DNA of 6,215 nucleotides, taken from the NCBI GenBank assembly GCA_021783895.1, contig JAJXTJ010000081.1:1-6215 (forward strand), read 5' to 3'. Positions 1 through 6,215 of the stretch are shown piece after piece. A program made the translations under genes and the position numbers. The notes beneath the pieces are model-generated. The model saw only the letters and a program-made list of their open reading frames with translations. It did no database searches and had not been told where the DNA came from. This DNA comes from Pseudomonadota bacterium (GTDB lineage: Bacteria; Pseudomonadota; Gammaproteobacteria; Burkholderiales; Sulfuricellaceae). Within the stretch, counting starts at the first letter, position 1, and every line of letters begins with the position of its first letter.

Positions 1-116
1 TCGGCGCAGTACGAGCCGACGCCGCCGAGCCCGGCGACAAACACGTGCCTGGATGCCAGCCTGGCGATGCCTTCATCGCCGAGCAGAATATGGGTGCGTT
101 CGAATTGGGGGAGCAA
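1..116 (-). CDS. tcdA: tRNA threonylcarbamoyladenosine dehydratase, N-terminal part
   Basis: The gene runs off the window edge; only about 38 N-terminal residues are visible. They begin LPQFERTHILLGDEG after the initiator and reach the glycine-rich GLGGVGSYCA. In the ThiF/E1-like superfamily this GxGGxGS motif binds ATP. The ERT..LLG.EG..RL lead-in followed by that motif matches TcdA (CsdL/YgdL), which in the cytosol uses ATP to cyclise tRNA N6-threonylcarbamoyladenosine at position 37. The start is TTG (116-114). An in-frame TAA two codons upstream (122-120) rules out a longer form, and AAGGA (129-125) lies 8 nt ahead. It follows the cation diffusion facilitator gene after a 135-bp gap filled by an inverted repeat. 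A different ThiF-family member (MoeB/ThiF) is possible but less likely given the N-terminal sequence. Confidence 0.82.
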   Translation of the reverse strand, partial: MLPQFERTHILLGDEGIARLASRHVFVAGLGGVGSYCA

Positions 117-123
117 GGTTTAT

Positions 124-129
124 ATCCTT
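124..129 (-). promoter_or_regulatory. Ribosome binding site deciding the TTG start of tcdA
   Basis: The minus strand reads AAGGAT ending 7 nt before TTG (116-114). Because TAA sits in frame between this site and the TTG, translation of tcdA must begin at or after the TTG, and no ATG follows in frame within the visible part. The site overlaps a perfect AT-only inverted repeat (TTAAAAA-TAA-TTTTTAA, 128-144) that joins the gene's leader to the end of the upstream repeat element. Confidence 0.7.
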
Positions 130-140
130 AAAAATAATTT

Positions 141-255
141 TTAACCACGGGGTACACGGGGAAAGCAAGAGCTCCCATTCGCCCAACGGACGTGTTGGCG
201 GGGCTATGTGACTTATCGGCTTTTCCCCCGTGATCCCCGTGCGCCCCGTGGTTAA
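141..255. repeat. Intergenic inverted-repeat element, copy 1
   Basis: The 22-bp arms (141-162 and 234-255) are inverted copies with two mismatches, beginning TTAACCACGGGG. Each arm is made of CACGGGG units at 9-nt period: three in the right arm, two in the left, so one unit was lost or never present on the left. The roughly 70-nt core contains CATTCGCCCAAC (176-187), the reverse complement of a motif in the copy at 4804-4937 (11 of 12 bases agree). The core also has a small hairpin, CCAAC (183-187) with GTTGG (194-198). This copy is therefore inverted relative to the other. It has no coding capacity that I believe. It fills the gap between the cation diffusion facilitator gene and tcdA, and its right arm supplies that gene's TAA stop. 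I know no formal name for this family. Confidence 0.8.
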
Positions 256-1163
256 CTGCTTTTTCCATGTTCATGGCGCCCCTTCTCTGATTGCGTTTCC
301 AGCGGCTCGACATGGATAGTCACTGCGGTGTTGGGCAGGGCGAGACCCAGCGCCGCCTCGATCCGGTCGCACAGGGTATGAGCCTCGTTCACCGTACTTT
401 CCCCCGGCACCAGCAGGTGAAGATCGATGAAGCGGCGCGATCCGGATTTGCGGGTACGCAGGTCGTGGAAGGAGGTGCCATTGGGCAATAATTTGCCGAT
501 TTCCGCCTCGATCTGGCCGACCTCCTCGACCGGCAGGGCTGCGTCCATCAGCCCGCTCCAGGAACGCCGCAGCAGGCTGAAACCGGCATAGATGATGTTG
601 AGTCCCACCGCCACCGCCATCAGCGGGTCGAGTATCTGCCACGAGGGCGGCGCGAACATCACCACGCCCAGGCCCGCCACCACCCCCACCGAGGTCCAGA
701 CGTCGGTCAGCAGGTGCTTGGCATCCGCTTCCAGTGTGATGCTGTCGTACTTGACTCCCACCTTGAGCATGGCCCGTGCCGTGGCGAAATTCAGCGCCGC
801 CGCGAGCAATGAAACCATCAGGCCGGGGCCGAGATTTTCCAGCGCAGCGGGATGCAGGAAGCGCCCCACTGCGGCATAGATGATGGATGCCGCCGCCACC
901 AGAATCAGCGCGCCCTCGGCGCCGCTGGAAAAATATTCCGCCTTGTCGTGGCCGTAGGCGTGGTCGACGTCCGCAGGACGGGAAGCGATGATCAGCGCCG
1001 TCAGGGCGATCAGGCCGGCGGCGAGGTTGACCAGCGATTCGACGGCGTCGGAAAGCAGGCTCACCGAACCGGTAAGAAAAAATGCGCCGAATTTCAGCGC
1101 CATCGTCGTGATCGAGGTCACGATCGACAGGTACGCCATGCGCAGGGTGGCTTGTTTTCTCAT
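252..1163 (-). CDS. Cation diffusion facilitator (CDF) family metal efflux transporter
   Basis: This 303-residue inner-membrane protein is of standard CDF length and probably exports a divalent metal (Zn, Fe or Mn) in exchange for protons. Six membrane segments fall in roughly residues 10-200. TM2 carries SDAVESLVN, placing E42 and N46 at the usual DxxxD positions; TM5 carries H150xxxD154. The loop HAYGH (68-72) is a second metal-site signature. The cytoplasmic domain (about 207-288) keeps H233, H249, H262, H284 and E286, closely matching the zinc-site pattern I recall for YiiP. A short tail RHEHG is mildly His-rich. The start codon overlaps the tatD stop as ATGA, and a good AAAGGA site lies 5 nt upstream. 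The TAA stop lies inside the arm of the adjoining repeat. Family assignment is firm; metal specificity cannot be read from the sequence, and N46 in place of Asp argues against copying the FieF/YiiP label. Confidence 0.93.
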   Translation of the reverse strand: MRKQATLRMAYLSIVTSITTMALKFGAFFLTGSVSLLSDAVESLVNLAAGLIALTALIIASRPADVDHAYGHDKAEYFSSGAEGALILVAAASIIYAAVGRFLHPAALENLGPGLMVSLLAAALNFATARAMLKVGVKYDSITLEADAKHLLTDVWTSVGVVAGLGVVMFAPPSWQILDPLMAVAVGLNIIYAGFSLLRRSWSGLMDAALPVEEVGQIEAEIGKLLPNGTSFHDLRTRKSGSRRFIDLHLLVPGESTVNEAHTLCDRIEAALGLALPNTAVTIHVEPLETQSEKGRHEHGKSS

Positions 1164-1924
1164 GCCAGTCCTTTCAGGATCGCCCTGGCATTGGCCGTGG
1201 TCGCCTCCGCCACCTCGGCGACCGCCATCCCGCGCAATTCAGCCAAAGTTTCGGCAATGCGCGGCAAGTATTCCGGGCTGTTGCGCGTCTTGCCGATGAA
1301 TGCCGGCGGAATATCCGGCGCATCGGTTTCGAGCACGATGCTGTCCAGCGGCAGGGTGGCGGCCAACTCGCGCAGTTTGGTGGCGCGGTCGTAAGTCATG
1401 GCGCCGCCGAAGCCGAGCTTGAATCCCAGCTTGATGAATTCCTCCGCCTGCTGGCGGCTGCCGTTGAAGGCATGGGCGATGCCGCCTTTCACCTTGGCTG
1501 AGCGCAAGAACTTCAGCACACTATCCTGCGCCCGGCGGATGTGCAGCAGCACCGGCAAGTCGAACTCCCGCGCGATTTTCAGCTGTTCGGAAAAATAGAA
1601 TTTCTGGCGCTCGCGGTCGTAATCCGGCACGAAAAAGTCCAGGCCGATTTCGCCGATGGCGACCGGTCGGTGCACAACGATCATCTCGCGCAGCGCCGTC
1701 AAATCTTCGTGCTGGGCACTATCCACATACATCGGATGGATGCCCAGCGCCGGAAAGCAGCCGGGATAGCGCCCGCAAGTCGCCAGCAGCGCGGCGAAGC
1801 CGGCTCGTTCCACGCCGGGAACCACGATGACCCCGACCCCCACCGTACGGGCACGCGCCGCCACTTCGTCGCGGTCGGCGGCGAATTCGGCGGCATCCAG
1901 ATGGCAGTGGGTGTCGATCAGCAT
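1160..1924 (-). CDS. TatD family metal-dependent hydrolase, YjjV-like
   Basis: This 254-residue soluble TIM-barrel hydrolase has typical TatD-family length. Metal ligands are visible in order: H6 and H8 (DTHCHLD), E92 (GEIGLD), H128 (LLHIRR), H151 (AHAFNGS) and D201 (LETDAPD). The stretches RQQAEEFIKLGFKLGFGG and LETDAPDIPP resemble E. coli YjjV more than TatD itself. The family is linked to metal-dependent DNase activity and to D-aminoacyl-tRNA-deacylase-like hydrolysis; the physiological substrate here is not known. The ATG is fixed by an in-frame TAA four codons upstream (1936-1934), although the ribosome binding site is weak. The stop overlaps the start of the cation diffusion facilitator gene by 4 nt, so the two genes should share a transcript. 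The 158-bp leader holds a degenerate inverted repeat and a possible promoter. Confidence 0.94.
   Translation of the reverse strand: MLIDTHCHLDAAEFAADRDEVAARARTVGVGVIVVPGVERAGFAALLATCGRYPGCFPALGIHPMYVDSAQHEDLTALREMIVVHRPVAIGEIGLDFFVPDYDRERQKFYFSEQLKIAREFDLPVLLHIRRAQDSVLKFLRSAKVKGGIAHAFNGSRQQAEEFIKLGFKLGFGGAMTYDRATKLRELAATLPLDSIVLETDAPDIPPAFIGKTRNSPEYLPRIAETLAELRGMAVAEVAEATTANARAILKGLA
1169..1174 (-). promoter_or_regulatory. Ribosome binding site of the CDF gene inside tatD
   Basis: AAAGGA on the minus strand lies 5 nt before the ATG at 1163-1161, within the last codons of tatD. With the ATGA stop/start overlap this is the classical arrangement for translational coupling, and it supports the chosen start. 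Confidence 0.7.
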
Positions 1925-1950
1925 GGGTCTATTTTACCTAAAACAGGGCG

Positions 1951-2066
1951 TTTCACCGCAGAGGACACGGAGGACGCAGAGGAAAAACATGAAGCAAAAT
2001 ATAGTCATGCGTTTTCCTCTGATAAACGCTCTATTGGGCCGATATTTTTGAATTCCTCTACGGTTC
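1951..2066. repeat. Degenerate intergenic inverted repeat with GCAGAGG-type arm
   Basis: The left part reads ACCGCAGAGG, ACACGGAGG, ACGCAGAGG, so similar units recur at 9-nt period (1955-1981). Its outer end (1955-1965) pairs with 2054-2064 with one mismatch. The inner part CAGAGGAAAAAC (1977-1988) pairs with GTTTTCCTCTG (2011-2021) with one extra A. The right side is interrupted and has lost most of the tandem units. Architecture and spacing resemble the CACGGGG elements at 141-255 and 4804-4937, but the unit sequence differs and the GTTGGGYGAATG core is not recognisable. It occupies the gap between the ATPase and tatD. It may be a decayed relative or an independent family of similar design. 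Confidence 0.5.
1998..2026 (-). promoter_or_regulatory. Possible sigma-70 promoter upstream of tatD
   Basis: On the minus strand TATATT (2003-1998) matches five of six bases of the -10 consensus. TTTATC (2026-2021), a poor -35, lies 17 nt further upstream. The site is about 75 nt before the tatD ATG and lies within the degenerate repeat. If real it would drive tatD and the cation diffusion facilitator gene separately from the ATPase. The support is weak. Confidence 0.25.
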
Positions 2067-2082
2067 AAGATTTTTGTAAGGC

Positions 2083-4776
<2,694 letters not shown>

Positions 4777-4803
4777 TTATTCTTTAACCCTGGGAAAATC
4801 AGC

Positions 4804-4937
4804 TAACCACGGGGCACACGGGGATCACGGGGATAAAATCAATATGTTATGTCGTTCTGTCCAAGCACCTGTTGGGTGAATGCGTTGATGTCCCAAGTCT
4901 TTAGTTTTCCCCGTGGTCCCCGTGTGCCCCGTGGTTA
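4804..4937. repeat. Intergenic inverted-repeat element, copy 2
   Basis: This is the best-preserved copy: 30-bp arms (4804-4833 and 4908-4937) differ at one position. Each arm starts TAACCACGGGG and contains three CACGGGG units at exact 9-nt period. The 74-nt core carries GTTGGGTGAATG (4871-4882), which matches copy 1 in inverted orientation. It also has a small hairpin of CCAA (4861-4864) and TTGG (4872-4875). The element occupies most of the gap between mutY and the ATPase gene and ends 28 nt before the ATPase ATG. If transcribed it would fold into a long GC-rich stem. No U-tract follows, so it is not a textbook terminator, but it could protect, process or pause the transcript. Confidence 0.85.
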
Positions 4938-4954
4938 GAAAGCTGTTTCTAACC
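4933..4954. repeat. Perfect 9-bp hairpin between mutY and the repeat element
   Basis: GGTTAGAAA (4933-4941) and TTTCTAACC (4946-4954) are perfect inverted copies around a 4-nt loop, starting 6 nt after the mutY stop. One side is the outer end of the adjoining inverted-repeat element, so the other side looks like an extra copy of that element's end. There is no following U-tract, so I do not call it a terminator. Confidence 0.55.
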
Positions 4955-4959
4955 AGCCT

Positions 4960-6051
4960 TTAGGCAAGCGCTTTCAAAATATCCCGCACCGGCTTGGGCA
5001 GCGCCGCCCCCATTGCATCGGCCAAAGTAAGCCACAGCCCCCCCGGCTCGCGTACCCCAAGTTGCGGACCACCCTCACCCCAACCCTCTCCCGCTTGCGG
5101 GCGAGGGAGCAAAGGTGAAGGGCACTTGTTCTGATTTGCCGTCACCTCGAACACCCTCGGCACGATGCGCAGGCGGAAATGGGTGAAGGTATGCTGCCGC
5201 TCAGACAGCGGGCTGACTTCCTTGCCCGCCATGCCGAGGCGGGCAAGCGCGTCCGTCTCCAGAACAGGCACCTCGGGCAAGCTCCACATGCCGCCCCAGA
5301 TGCCGGTGGGCGGCCGCTTTTCCAGGTACACCTCGCCCTGGCGCAGCAGGATCAGCATGGCGGTTTCCTTCTGCGGCAGCGGCTTGCGCGGTTTGGGCGT
5401 GGGTAACTCCGCCACCCGCTTTTCATTGTAGGCGACACAGCCGGAACCGAGGGGGCAAGCGGCACAGGACGGCTTGCGGGTGCACACCGTGGCACCTAGG
5501 TCCATCAGCGCCTGGGTATAGGTTTCGATGCCGGATTCGGGCAGCAGCGCCTCGGCCTGTTGCCACAGCCGGTTTTCCACCGCCTTGACGCCGGGATAGC
5601 CGGCGATGCCGAAACAGCGCACCAGCACGCGCTTGACGTTGCCATCCAGGATCGCACGGCGCTGGCCGAAAGAGAAAGCCAGGATTGCGGCAGCGGTGGA
5701 ACGACCGATGCCGGGCAGCGCCACGACCTGCTCAAGATCGAATGGAAAAATGCCGCCATGCTGCGCCGACACGAGCTGCGCGGCACGGTGCAGATTGCGT
5801 CCGCGTGCGTAGTAGCCGAGCCCGCTCCAGTGGGCGAGCACCTCATCCTGCGACGCGGCGGCGAGGGCGGCGATATCGGGAAAGCGCGCGATGAAACGCT
5901 GGTAATAGGGGATGACGCTGGCGACCTGGGTCTGCTGCAGCATGATTTCCGACAGCCACACCGCATAAGGATCGCGGGTCTGCTGCCAAGGCAGGTCATG
6001 CCTGCCATGATGTTGCTGCCACTCGATCAGGCTCAGGGCGAAGTTTTTCAT
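4960..6051 (-). CDS. mutY: A/G-specific adenine DNA glycosylase MutY
   Basis: MutY removes adenine mispaired with 8-oxoguanine or guanine, preventing G:C to T:A mutations. At 363 residues it is slightly longer than the E. coli protein. The helix-hairpin-helix glycosylase domain covers about 1-220: E35 in LSEIMLQQTQ, hairpin LPGIGRSTAAA (112-122) with S118, catalytic D136 in ILDGNVKRVL. An iron-sulfur motif is formed by C190, C196, C199 and C205. The C-terminal Nudix-like 8-oxoG-recognition domain includes RPPTGIWGGMWSLPE (246-260) and the FTH loop (289-291). Two oddities: the first cysteine pair is spaced CX5C instead of the usual CX6C, and residues about 309-328 are encoded by a REP-like palindrome. 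The ATG lies 10 nt after the AsmA-like stop with no clear ribosome binding site, so coupling is likely; no other in-frame start was found before an upstream stop. Confidence 0.97.
   Translation of the reverse strand: MKNFALSLIEWQQHHGRHDLPWQQTRDPYAVWLSEIMLQQTQVASVIPYYQRFIARFPDIAALAAASQDEVLAHWSGLGYYARGRNLHRAAQLVSAQHGGIFPFDLEQVVALPGIGRSTAAAILAFSFGQRRAILDGNVKRVLVRCFGIAGYPGVKAVENRLWQQAEALLPESGIETYTQALMDLGATVCTRKPSCAACPLGSGCVAYNEKRVAELPTPKPRKPLPQKETAMLILLRQGEVYLEKRPPTGIWGGMWSLPEVPVLETDALARLGMAGKEVSPLSERQHTFTHFRLRIVPRVFEVTANQNKCPSPLLPRPQAGEGWGEGGPQLGVREPGGLWLTLADAMGAALPKPVRDILKALA
5072..5122. repeat. REP-like palindrome embedded in the mutY coding sequence
   Basis: The inner stem pairs CCCTC-T-CCCGC (5084-5094) with GCGGG-C-GAGGG (5097-5107) around a TT centre. 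The outer stem pairs CCCTCACC (5072-5079) with GGTGAAGGG (5114-5122) with one bulged A. This CCCTCACCCCAACCCTCTCCC type is, from general knowledge, a common dispersed intergenic palindrome in proteobacteria. On the minus strand it is read in frame as PSPLLPRPQAGEGWGEG, so it adds about 20 residues to MutY without breaking the frame. Confidence 0.8.
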
Positions 6052-6061
6052 TCCGGAAAAG

Positions 6062-6215
6062 CTACTGAACTGCGGAGGGGTTCAGATTGCCGCCATCCGC
6101 CTTGACATTGAGCTTGATGTTGGAAGACTTGATGCTCGCGACCTTGAGCACGCCGATGCTGAGCTGGCCGCTGGCATTAAGATTATTCAGGAAGCCGAAA
6201 TCCAGCGGCTTTTCG
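6062..6215 (-). CDS. AsmA-like protein, C-terminal end
   Basis: Only the last 50 residues are inside the window, read from 6214 to the TAG at 6064-6062. The sequence LDFGFLNNLNASGQLSIG, then LKVASIKSSNIKLNVKAD and GGNL, resembles the conserved C-terminal AsmA repeat (LxxLNxxGxLxIGxLKVxxxKxSNxxLxxKAxxGxL). AsmA-family proteins are large, membrane-anchored periplasmic proteins linked to outer-membrane lipid homeostasis. In the family members I recall, this segment is followed by well over 100 further residues, often starting with an LYxG motif; here the frame stops at once with NPSAVQ. The gene may be truncated at its 3' end or belong to a shorter branch. It lies 10 nt upstream of mutY in the same direction, so the two are probably co-transcribed. 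Confidence 0.6.
   Translation of the reverse strand, partial: EKPLDFGFLNNLNASGQLSIGVLKVASIKSSNIKLNVKADGGNLNPSAVQ

Follow-up and report, generated by a model that had tools for sequence, protein, structure and literature searches.

A dispersed family of short intergenic repeats with heptamer arms in some betaproteobacteria, probably miniature inverted-repeat transposable elements

According to the partial text available for the respective sources, YPAL or RU-2 of Yersinia is a repeat of 168 bp and ERIC, also named IRU or RU-1, of enterobacteria one of 127 bp (PMC2229807), the terminal inverted repeats of BrickBuilt are closest to those of ISPg1 and ISPg9 of the IS5 family (PMC4596501), and copies of Chunjie measure 178-235 bp, have conserved ends and in one case are inserted in an operon (PMC10969869). 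Here, we report on a repeat found in a contig of a Pseudomonadota bacterium affiliated with the Sulfuricellaceae (JAJXTJ010000081.1 of assembly GCA_021783895.1, positions 1 to 6,215); this whole stretch of 6,215 nucleotides is called the window in the following. The original prediction, made from the letters alone, had noticed two copies of an intergenic element consisting of nested palindromes. These copies belong to one dispersed family that is located between genes of some betaproteobacteria, and the element is probably a non-autonomous DNA transposon, i.e. a miniature inverted-repeat transposable element (MITE), with a full form of approximately 160 nt.

The two palindromes had been placed at 141-255 and 4804-4937, and both were found at these positions, but they proved to be delimited too narrowly, since by the family profile they span about 127-269 and 4789-4951 and exceed the first limits by approximately 14 nt at either end. 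Copy 1 lies on the plus strand (127..269; 76.4 bits, E 7.8e-24) and copy 2 on the minus strand (4789..4951; 103.4 bits, E 3.1e-32), as scored with R1, a sequence-only profile made from 22 copies; both window copies are among these 22, and the score of copy 1 is therefore partly given by construction. The expected architecture of CACGGGG heptamers at a period of 9 nt around a core of approximately 70 nt was seen in both. The inverted repeat of copy 1 (141-255) has 22-nt arms that are 91% complementary and spaced by 71 nt, that of copy 2 (4803-4938) has 34-nt arms with 94% complementarity and a spacing of 68 nt. In copy 1, the left arm (143..161, plus strand) comprises two 9-nt units, AACCACGGGG TA CACGGGG, and the right arm (225..253, minus strand) three, which read inward AACCACGGGG CG CACGGGG AT CACGGGGG. 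The arms of copy 2 read AACCACGGGG CA CACGGGG AT CACGGGG on the left (4805..4832, plus strand) and, inward, AACCACGGGG CA CACGGGG AC CACGGGG on the right (4909..4936, minus strand). The shared core motif, predicted to be inverted in copy 1, is indeed exact in both copies on opposite strands: as GTTGGGCGAATG at 176..187 (minus strand) it forms one side of the central hairpin of copy 1, and as GTTGGGTGAATG at 4871..4882 (plus strand) it lies within CACCTGTTGGGTG of copy 2. The outer ends are CCTTAAAAA in copy 1 (126..134, plus strand), to be compared with family ends near CCTRRAAAA, and CCTGGGAAAA in copy 2 (4789..4798, plus strand). Moreover, copy 1 can be aligned with the inverted copy 2 over 92 nt with 73% identity. 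Folded as RNA, copy 2 reaches -83.8 kcal/mol (z -8.1; none of 200 shuffles equally stable) and copy 1 reaches -57.7 kcal/mol (z -3.9; one of 200).

Many related copies with a conserved core were recovered by profile and arm searches among relatives, which bears out the claim that the two palindromes are copies of one element and not chance structures. Scanning the genome contigs for an arm, the core motif and a second arm gave four matches, of which inspection left one true homolog, L006 in Betaproteobacteria bacterium RBG_16_58_11 (a metagenome-assembled genome, MAG; hereafter G001); the other three were judged to be chance. Independent of any model, BLAST against the fetched G001 loci aligned window positions 4794-4952 with a G001 element (160 nt at 72.5%, E 1e-17). 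Searching G001 for the arm pattern AACCACGGGGNNCACGGGG yielded 72 exact matches compared with 0 for the reversed control, and the pattern is present in five of the ten genomes of this family, G001 counted. Within the order, a stricter three-unit pattern was found in 5 of 200 genomes, including G001 and G003, and within the phylum the looser form CACRGRG in 2 of 120, again including G001. Hence, the element family has to be regarded as sporadic. R1 matched in 12 of 14 genomes, with 136 matches in G001; these counts cover both strands, so that many elements are counted twice, at most 150 candidates were scored per genome, and the set consists of G001 and its family (10 genomes) plus four genomes picked for having pattern matches. 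Rfam gave no match at gathering score in the window, and in five loci with relatives all eight matches at E 1 or better stayed under the gathering score. A literature search with exact element strings returned nothing on a bacterial repeat, as judged by title and beginning of abstract; most subscription papers were outside this search and an earlier description is possible. In this scope, the suggestion of a family without a known name holds. Among plasmids, copy 2 gave one 30-nt match (E 0.4), among phages two 33-nt matches (E 0.5), all taken as chance, and a copy from genome G071 (see below) gave none in either collection. Viral contigs carrying the outer end of the element were not found.

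The extent of the unit became visible in an alignment of 33 copies of 100-145 nt with 60-nt flanks, window copies 1 and 2 included, in which conservation reaches past the boundaries given first. Read in one direction, the full unit begins with CCTRRAAAA, followed by an A/T-rich stretch, the arm AACCACGGGG NN CACGGGG NN CACGGGG AAA, the core, which has CACCC..GGGTG in its middle, and then roughly the mirror image of the preceding parts; the outer CCT..AGG inverted ends together with the heptamer arms make up the terminal inverted repeats. Measured between the outer ends of the arms, the 60 copies outside the window span 55-214 nt, 37 of them at least 95 nt. Orthologous copies in genomes of approximately 90% identity differ by whole 9-nt units (L039/L065, L050/L061, L090/L017), which indicates that the arm arrays expand and contract. 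Three single arms folded at -2.8 to -5.9 kcal/mol, without a strong hairpin. The assumption that the dinucleotide spacers of the two arms pair with each other was given up, because 17 copies revealed no excess (5/17 versus 3.0 expected and 1/17 versus 1.8), and an apparent 910-nt 'autonomous' copy at C79 of G001 resolved into two separate short elements. Some loci carry altered forms. L043, L052 and L055 (G002, G003) are remnants in which one arm is fused directly to sequence resembling the right flank, as would result from deletion of the hairpin. At L094:1414-2038 (G008), half of the element known from the orthologous G001 site L015 is replaced by a BrnT-like gene (PF04365) together with an open reading frame (ORF) of 78 aa without Pfam match.

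Evidence for transposition comes from a subfamily in G071, a genome of the same order as G001. Its elements, with ends given as CCTAGAAAAAGC..GCCACAGAG, have arms of the type GCCACAGAG NN CACAGAG NN CACAGAG, and both their outer ends and their central hairpin TCACCCATCAGGTGAATGCG resemble those of the G001 type. We obtained 35 left ends (up to 3 mismatches), 30 of them with loci, and tested 27 distinct two-ended copies after exclusion of two without right end and one duplicate. An exact target duplication of 5 bp flanks 15 of these 27 (permuted mean 1.40, highest value 6 in 2000 permutations), and among lengths from 2 to 9 bp none except 5 bp gave a comparable signal. The target consensus is WTNAW; of 54 flanks, 49 have T as the second and 52 have A as the fourth base. 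The same preference is found in the flanks of G001-type copies (T in 34 and A in 31 of 52), three of which, L022, L024 and L030, have perfect 5-mer duplications. The median identity among 28 G071 copies is 0.84, with up to 98% in the best pairs; one pair of identical copies represents a segmental duplication. The G071 subfamily is the younger and the G001-type subfamily of the window the older one. A tandem pair at L340 in G071 was rejected as a 943-nt segmental duplication including part of the neighbouring gene. For L351 and L371, a same-strand right end was absent within 300 nt and also up to approximately 2.6 and 6.1 kb, and the arm of L351 is interrupted by a GTAGGTCGGGCACCCCGTGCCCGAC repeat.

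Comparison of orthologous sites adds to the picture of a mobile element. At the C36 site, the flanks join in G003, G005 and G008 with a single CTCAT, compared with CTCAT on both sides of the element in G001; G002 has another insert of approximately 66 nt. An initial reading of GCTCATG as a 7-bp duplication was given up in favor of the 5-mer after the G071 result. The flanks also join at C92, in G002 and G003. At C151, 26 nt (G002) and 19 nt (G008) stand in place of 168 and 165 nt in G001, with flank identity of approximately 90%; G003 carries an unrelated stretch of about 200 nt here. As part of the site may be a replacement, the direction of change is less certain. The first C143 site is empty in G005, bears a different palindrome in G002 and a CACGGAG-type element in G004, and at the second C143 site the sole comparable relative, G008, carries a CCTCTCC-type repeat. 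Shared filled sites also occur (e.g. L017/L090, L032/L058), which together with the empty sites implies that copies are both inherited and newly placed. Orthologs of L064, L065 and L022 have different, unrelated repeats at the same intergenic positions, as if these were hot spots. With the empty sites and the 5-bp duplications in the related subfamily, the mobility suspected in the original prediction is substantiated, and the element is very probably a mobile one that duplicates its target.

The position of the copies relative to genes raises the question of a role at mRNA ends. The context set comprised the 60 copies outside the window, of which 50 have both neighbours, four lie inside a called ORF and six lack a neighbour; genes were called by a codon-usage script, and the counts are not fully independent because the set includes some mutually orthologous elements, though few. 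Gene pairs with an element were tandem in 35, convergent in 11 and divergent in 4 cases, those without in 52, 4 and 9, respectively. Convergent pairs are thus enriched (11/50 versus 4/65, P 0.02), and the shortfall of divergent pairs is not significant (P 0.39). Forty of the 50 elements are located no more than 30 nt from a stop codon; among 62 stop distances, 8 are -1 or -2 and 18 are 17-19 nt, and some stops are situated within the ends of the element itself. Of 123 outer ends, a fraction of 0.81 is followed by a T-tract, defined as 4 or more T in 6 nt, compared with 0.21 and 0.16 further out, and 40 of 61 elements have such tracts outward on both ends. The layout matches a two-way terminator, though the hairpin arms are far apart; a terminator scan limited to loops of 3-8 nt left the element sites unmarked. 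The proximity to stops and the outward T-tracts make a role at mRNA ends plausible, and on this layout an actual effect on mRNA ends appears possible rather than probable. One could go further and regard the element as a functional regulatory or terminator unit that is retained for this purpose, its mobility being incidental. The T-tracts, the stop distances and the convergent enrichment agree with such a unit, whereas relatives carry nothing or an unrelated or different repeat at the five orthologous sites, whole units are gained or lost between orthologous copies, and the genes neighbouring the copies in the window have no common theme. We consider this explanation unlikely.

A non-autonomous transposon accounts for these observations best. 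The element is short, non-coding and multicopy, it has inverted ends, target duplication (a point resting on the G071 subfamily) and both filled and empty sites, and so corresponds to the definition of a MITE save for the autonomous partner. A transposase encoded elsewhere would bind the ends and arms and move the element, thereby duplicating 5 bp of target with the consensus WTNAW. Copies would then persist where they are least harmful, i.e. just behind stop codons, and the long hairpin with outward T-tracts that they add to the mRNA there may serve as a weak terminator in both directions or as an RNA-processing site.

Several points weigh against the interpretation as a MITE with this mechanism. 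First of all, an autonomous partner with the same ends was not found at 30 Y1_Tnp loci, at the 6 PF13701 loci inspected of 11 or at the 30 G071 left ends inspected of 35. The boundary that gave 15 duplications among 27 G071 copies was picked after viewing the copies, though it was uniform for all. Taking 61 G001-type and window elements together, there is no general signal of target duplication; after the G001-type ends were re-set by G071-derived weights, with both ends recognisable in 17 of 39 elements, the mean match of 2.12 versus 1.82 was not significant (P 0.12), and the two window copies lack a target duplication, with 3 and 1 of 5 positions matching. The site comparison concerned five G001 sites and their orthologs in the family of G001. 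Furthermore, the invariance of G001-type arms is partly due to ascertainment, since these copies were found via the arm pattern. In the consensus fold, compensatory changes on both sides were seen for none of the pairs, and selection on the structure is hence not established. Finally, 35 of the 50 elements lie between co-directed genes, some of these genes being very close to each other, where a strong terminator would be costly.

Regarding the enzyme, the partner search covered two transposase families, Y1_Tnp and PF13701. We lean towards a DDE transposase acting in trans, and since no enzyme was found, mobilisation in trans is what we infer for this element. Insertion sequences of the IS1380 type have ends beginning with CC and produce target duplications of 4-5 bp, and PF13701 was searched because these traits fit the element. 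An origin from such an insertion sequence would explain the CCT..AGG ends and the 5-bp duplication, and G071 contains a PF13701 gene in truncated form; PF13701 genes exceeded the cut-off in only 2 of 14 genomes, however, and neither the arms nor similar ends were seen at the 6 loci inspected among 11, which renders this derivation improbable. According to a further explanation, the element is a REPIN, i.e. two inverted REP sequences moved by a RAYT tyrosine transposase. Its size, inverted doublet, intergenic site and copy number agree with this, and Y1_Tnp genes exist in 8 of the 10 family genomes. Nevertheless, arms are absent from all 30 Y1_Tnp loci in these 10 genomes (loci of 1661-3354 nt with flanks up to approximately 1.5 kb), whereas RAYT genes are described as always REP-flanked in the accessible part of PMC2817692; the number of Y1_Tnp genes does not track that of exact arm matches (9 genes and 0 matches in G005, 1 gene and 18 matches in G008), single arms fold weakly, and the G071 subfamily has its 5-bp target duplication. 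A REPIN is accordingly very improbable. Convergence of GC-rich palindromes, to which the low-complexity arms and arm-like strings in unrelated DNA might point, is refuted by core homology, as both the core and the outer ends can be aligned between copies and between genomes and the reversed-pattern control gave 0.

Returning to the transposon, its arms could be seen as arrays in which the recognition heptamer, be it CACGGGG, CACGGAG or CACAGAG, is swappable while the scaffold is shared, each heptamer being read at 9-nt spacing by the mobilising protein of the respective genome; single arms would in addition spread in contigs of viral collections. This idea is speculative and we regard it as rather doubtful. 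It would entail that arms and protein co-evolve, because each genome-specific protein reads its own heptamer, and if true, the spread of the arrays as single arms would make the family part of a wide superfamily whose logic of recognition is new. Apart from this, arms were noticed in IMG/VR contigs. The arm GCCACAGAGNNCACAGAGNNCACAGAG appears in 78 stretches (L392-L469), at least twice in 17 of them; a facing arm accompanies 14 of 100 occurrences by a strict regular expression, and an ATG follows within 30 nt in 32 of 100, counts for which no chance level was computed. Apparently, such single arms spread independently of the other parts of the element. A further contig, L002, bears three CACGGGG arms that stand singly and are each followed by an ATG at a distance of up to approximately 40 nt.

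The window itself contains a third, degenerate copy assigned to the wider family at 1937..2000 (plus strand, right end perhaps near 2081), with the outer end CCTAAAACAGGGCG and the arm CACCGCAGAGGACACGGAGGACGCAGAGG. It is not among the sequences of the R1 model, which matches it at 1941-1997 (E 1.7e-4); its heptamers have the form CRCRGAG and its best BLAST match is the G071 element L370 (78% over 55 nt). As it sits in the gap between the stop of an ATPase gene and the start of tatD, three intergenic gaps of the window are occupied by copies. The surrounding genes are all on the minus strand, in agreement with the predicted setting between co-directed genes. A cation-efflux transporter (252..1163; PF01545, PF16916; called as ORF) has its TAA stop in the GGTTAA end of copy 1 and its last codons within the outer end, so that the copies, described before as non-coding, are almost wholly but not entirely so. 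A distance of 28 nt separates the start of the P-type cation ATPase (2083..4776; PF00122, PF00689 and others; called as ORF) from the left arm of copy 2, and one of 23 nt separates the stop of a MutY-like A/G-specific adenine glycosylase (4960..6051; PF00730, PF14815; supported by homologs) from its right arm; the TatD nuclease is the other gene. Among the best 120 relatives of the MutY-like protein, the named ones belong chiefly to Sulfuricella, Sulfurimicrobium, Gallionellaceae and other betaproteobacterial MAGs, which makes a related betaproteobacterium the probable source of the window. The MutY-like protein has 23 residues more than its best homolog P0001 (341 aa), due to an insert at about 5062-5136 that spans a CCCTCACCCCAACCCTCTCCCGCTTGCGGGCGAGGG-type repeat and leaves the reading frame intact.

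With this family, a probable bacterial MITE is added to environmental betaproteobacteria. Its design is unusual, consisting of inverted arms of 9-nt units that are gained and lost, with a heptamer that differs between subfamilies and with similar ends and central hairpin, and three copies in 6 kb give an example of how dense such repeats can become. The young copies in G071 and the comparable empty sites make the search for the transposase tractable.

Known systems, compared here on the basis of partially available sources, share single features with the element. Chunjie of Geobacter is likewise a MITE and was compared by description only (PMC10969869). BrickBuilt of Porphyromonas gingivalis is a MITE with a tandem repeat, but a single 23-nt array between leader and tail, in contrast to the 9-nt units in both inverted arms found here (PMC4596501). 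REPIN and REP sequences have the inverted doublet with spacer, the high copy number and the proposed mobilisation in trans in common with our element, which differs from them in lacking a GT(A/G)G head with a palindrome of its own behind it, in the RAYT linkage, which was not seen, and in the 5-bp target duplication of the G071 subfamily (PMC3116915, PMC2817692). ERIC is also small, gives highly paired transcripts and lies between genes, and an effect on mRNA stability has been proposed for it, but TA ends and a terminal inverted repeat of 7 bp are given for it, unlike the element (PMC2229807). As an indirect test for ERIC, in which no ERIC sequence was aligned, copy 2 was searched against a collection of E. 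coli genomes (20,395 records; blastn, word size 11), in which ERIC should be present, without a match at E 1 or better. YPAL resembles the element in its length, imperfect palindrome, intergenic location, filled and empty sites and the absence of TA ends; its duplications of 3-26 bp differ from the excess at 5 bp with WTNAW in G071, and periodic heptamer arms are not described in the available part of the source (PMC2229807). Compared by description and not by sequence, YPAL appears to be the nearest analogue of the element.

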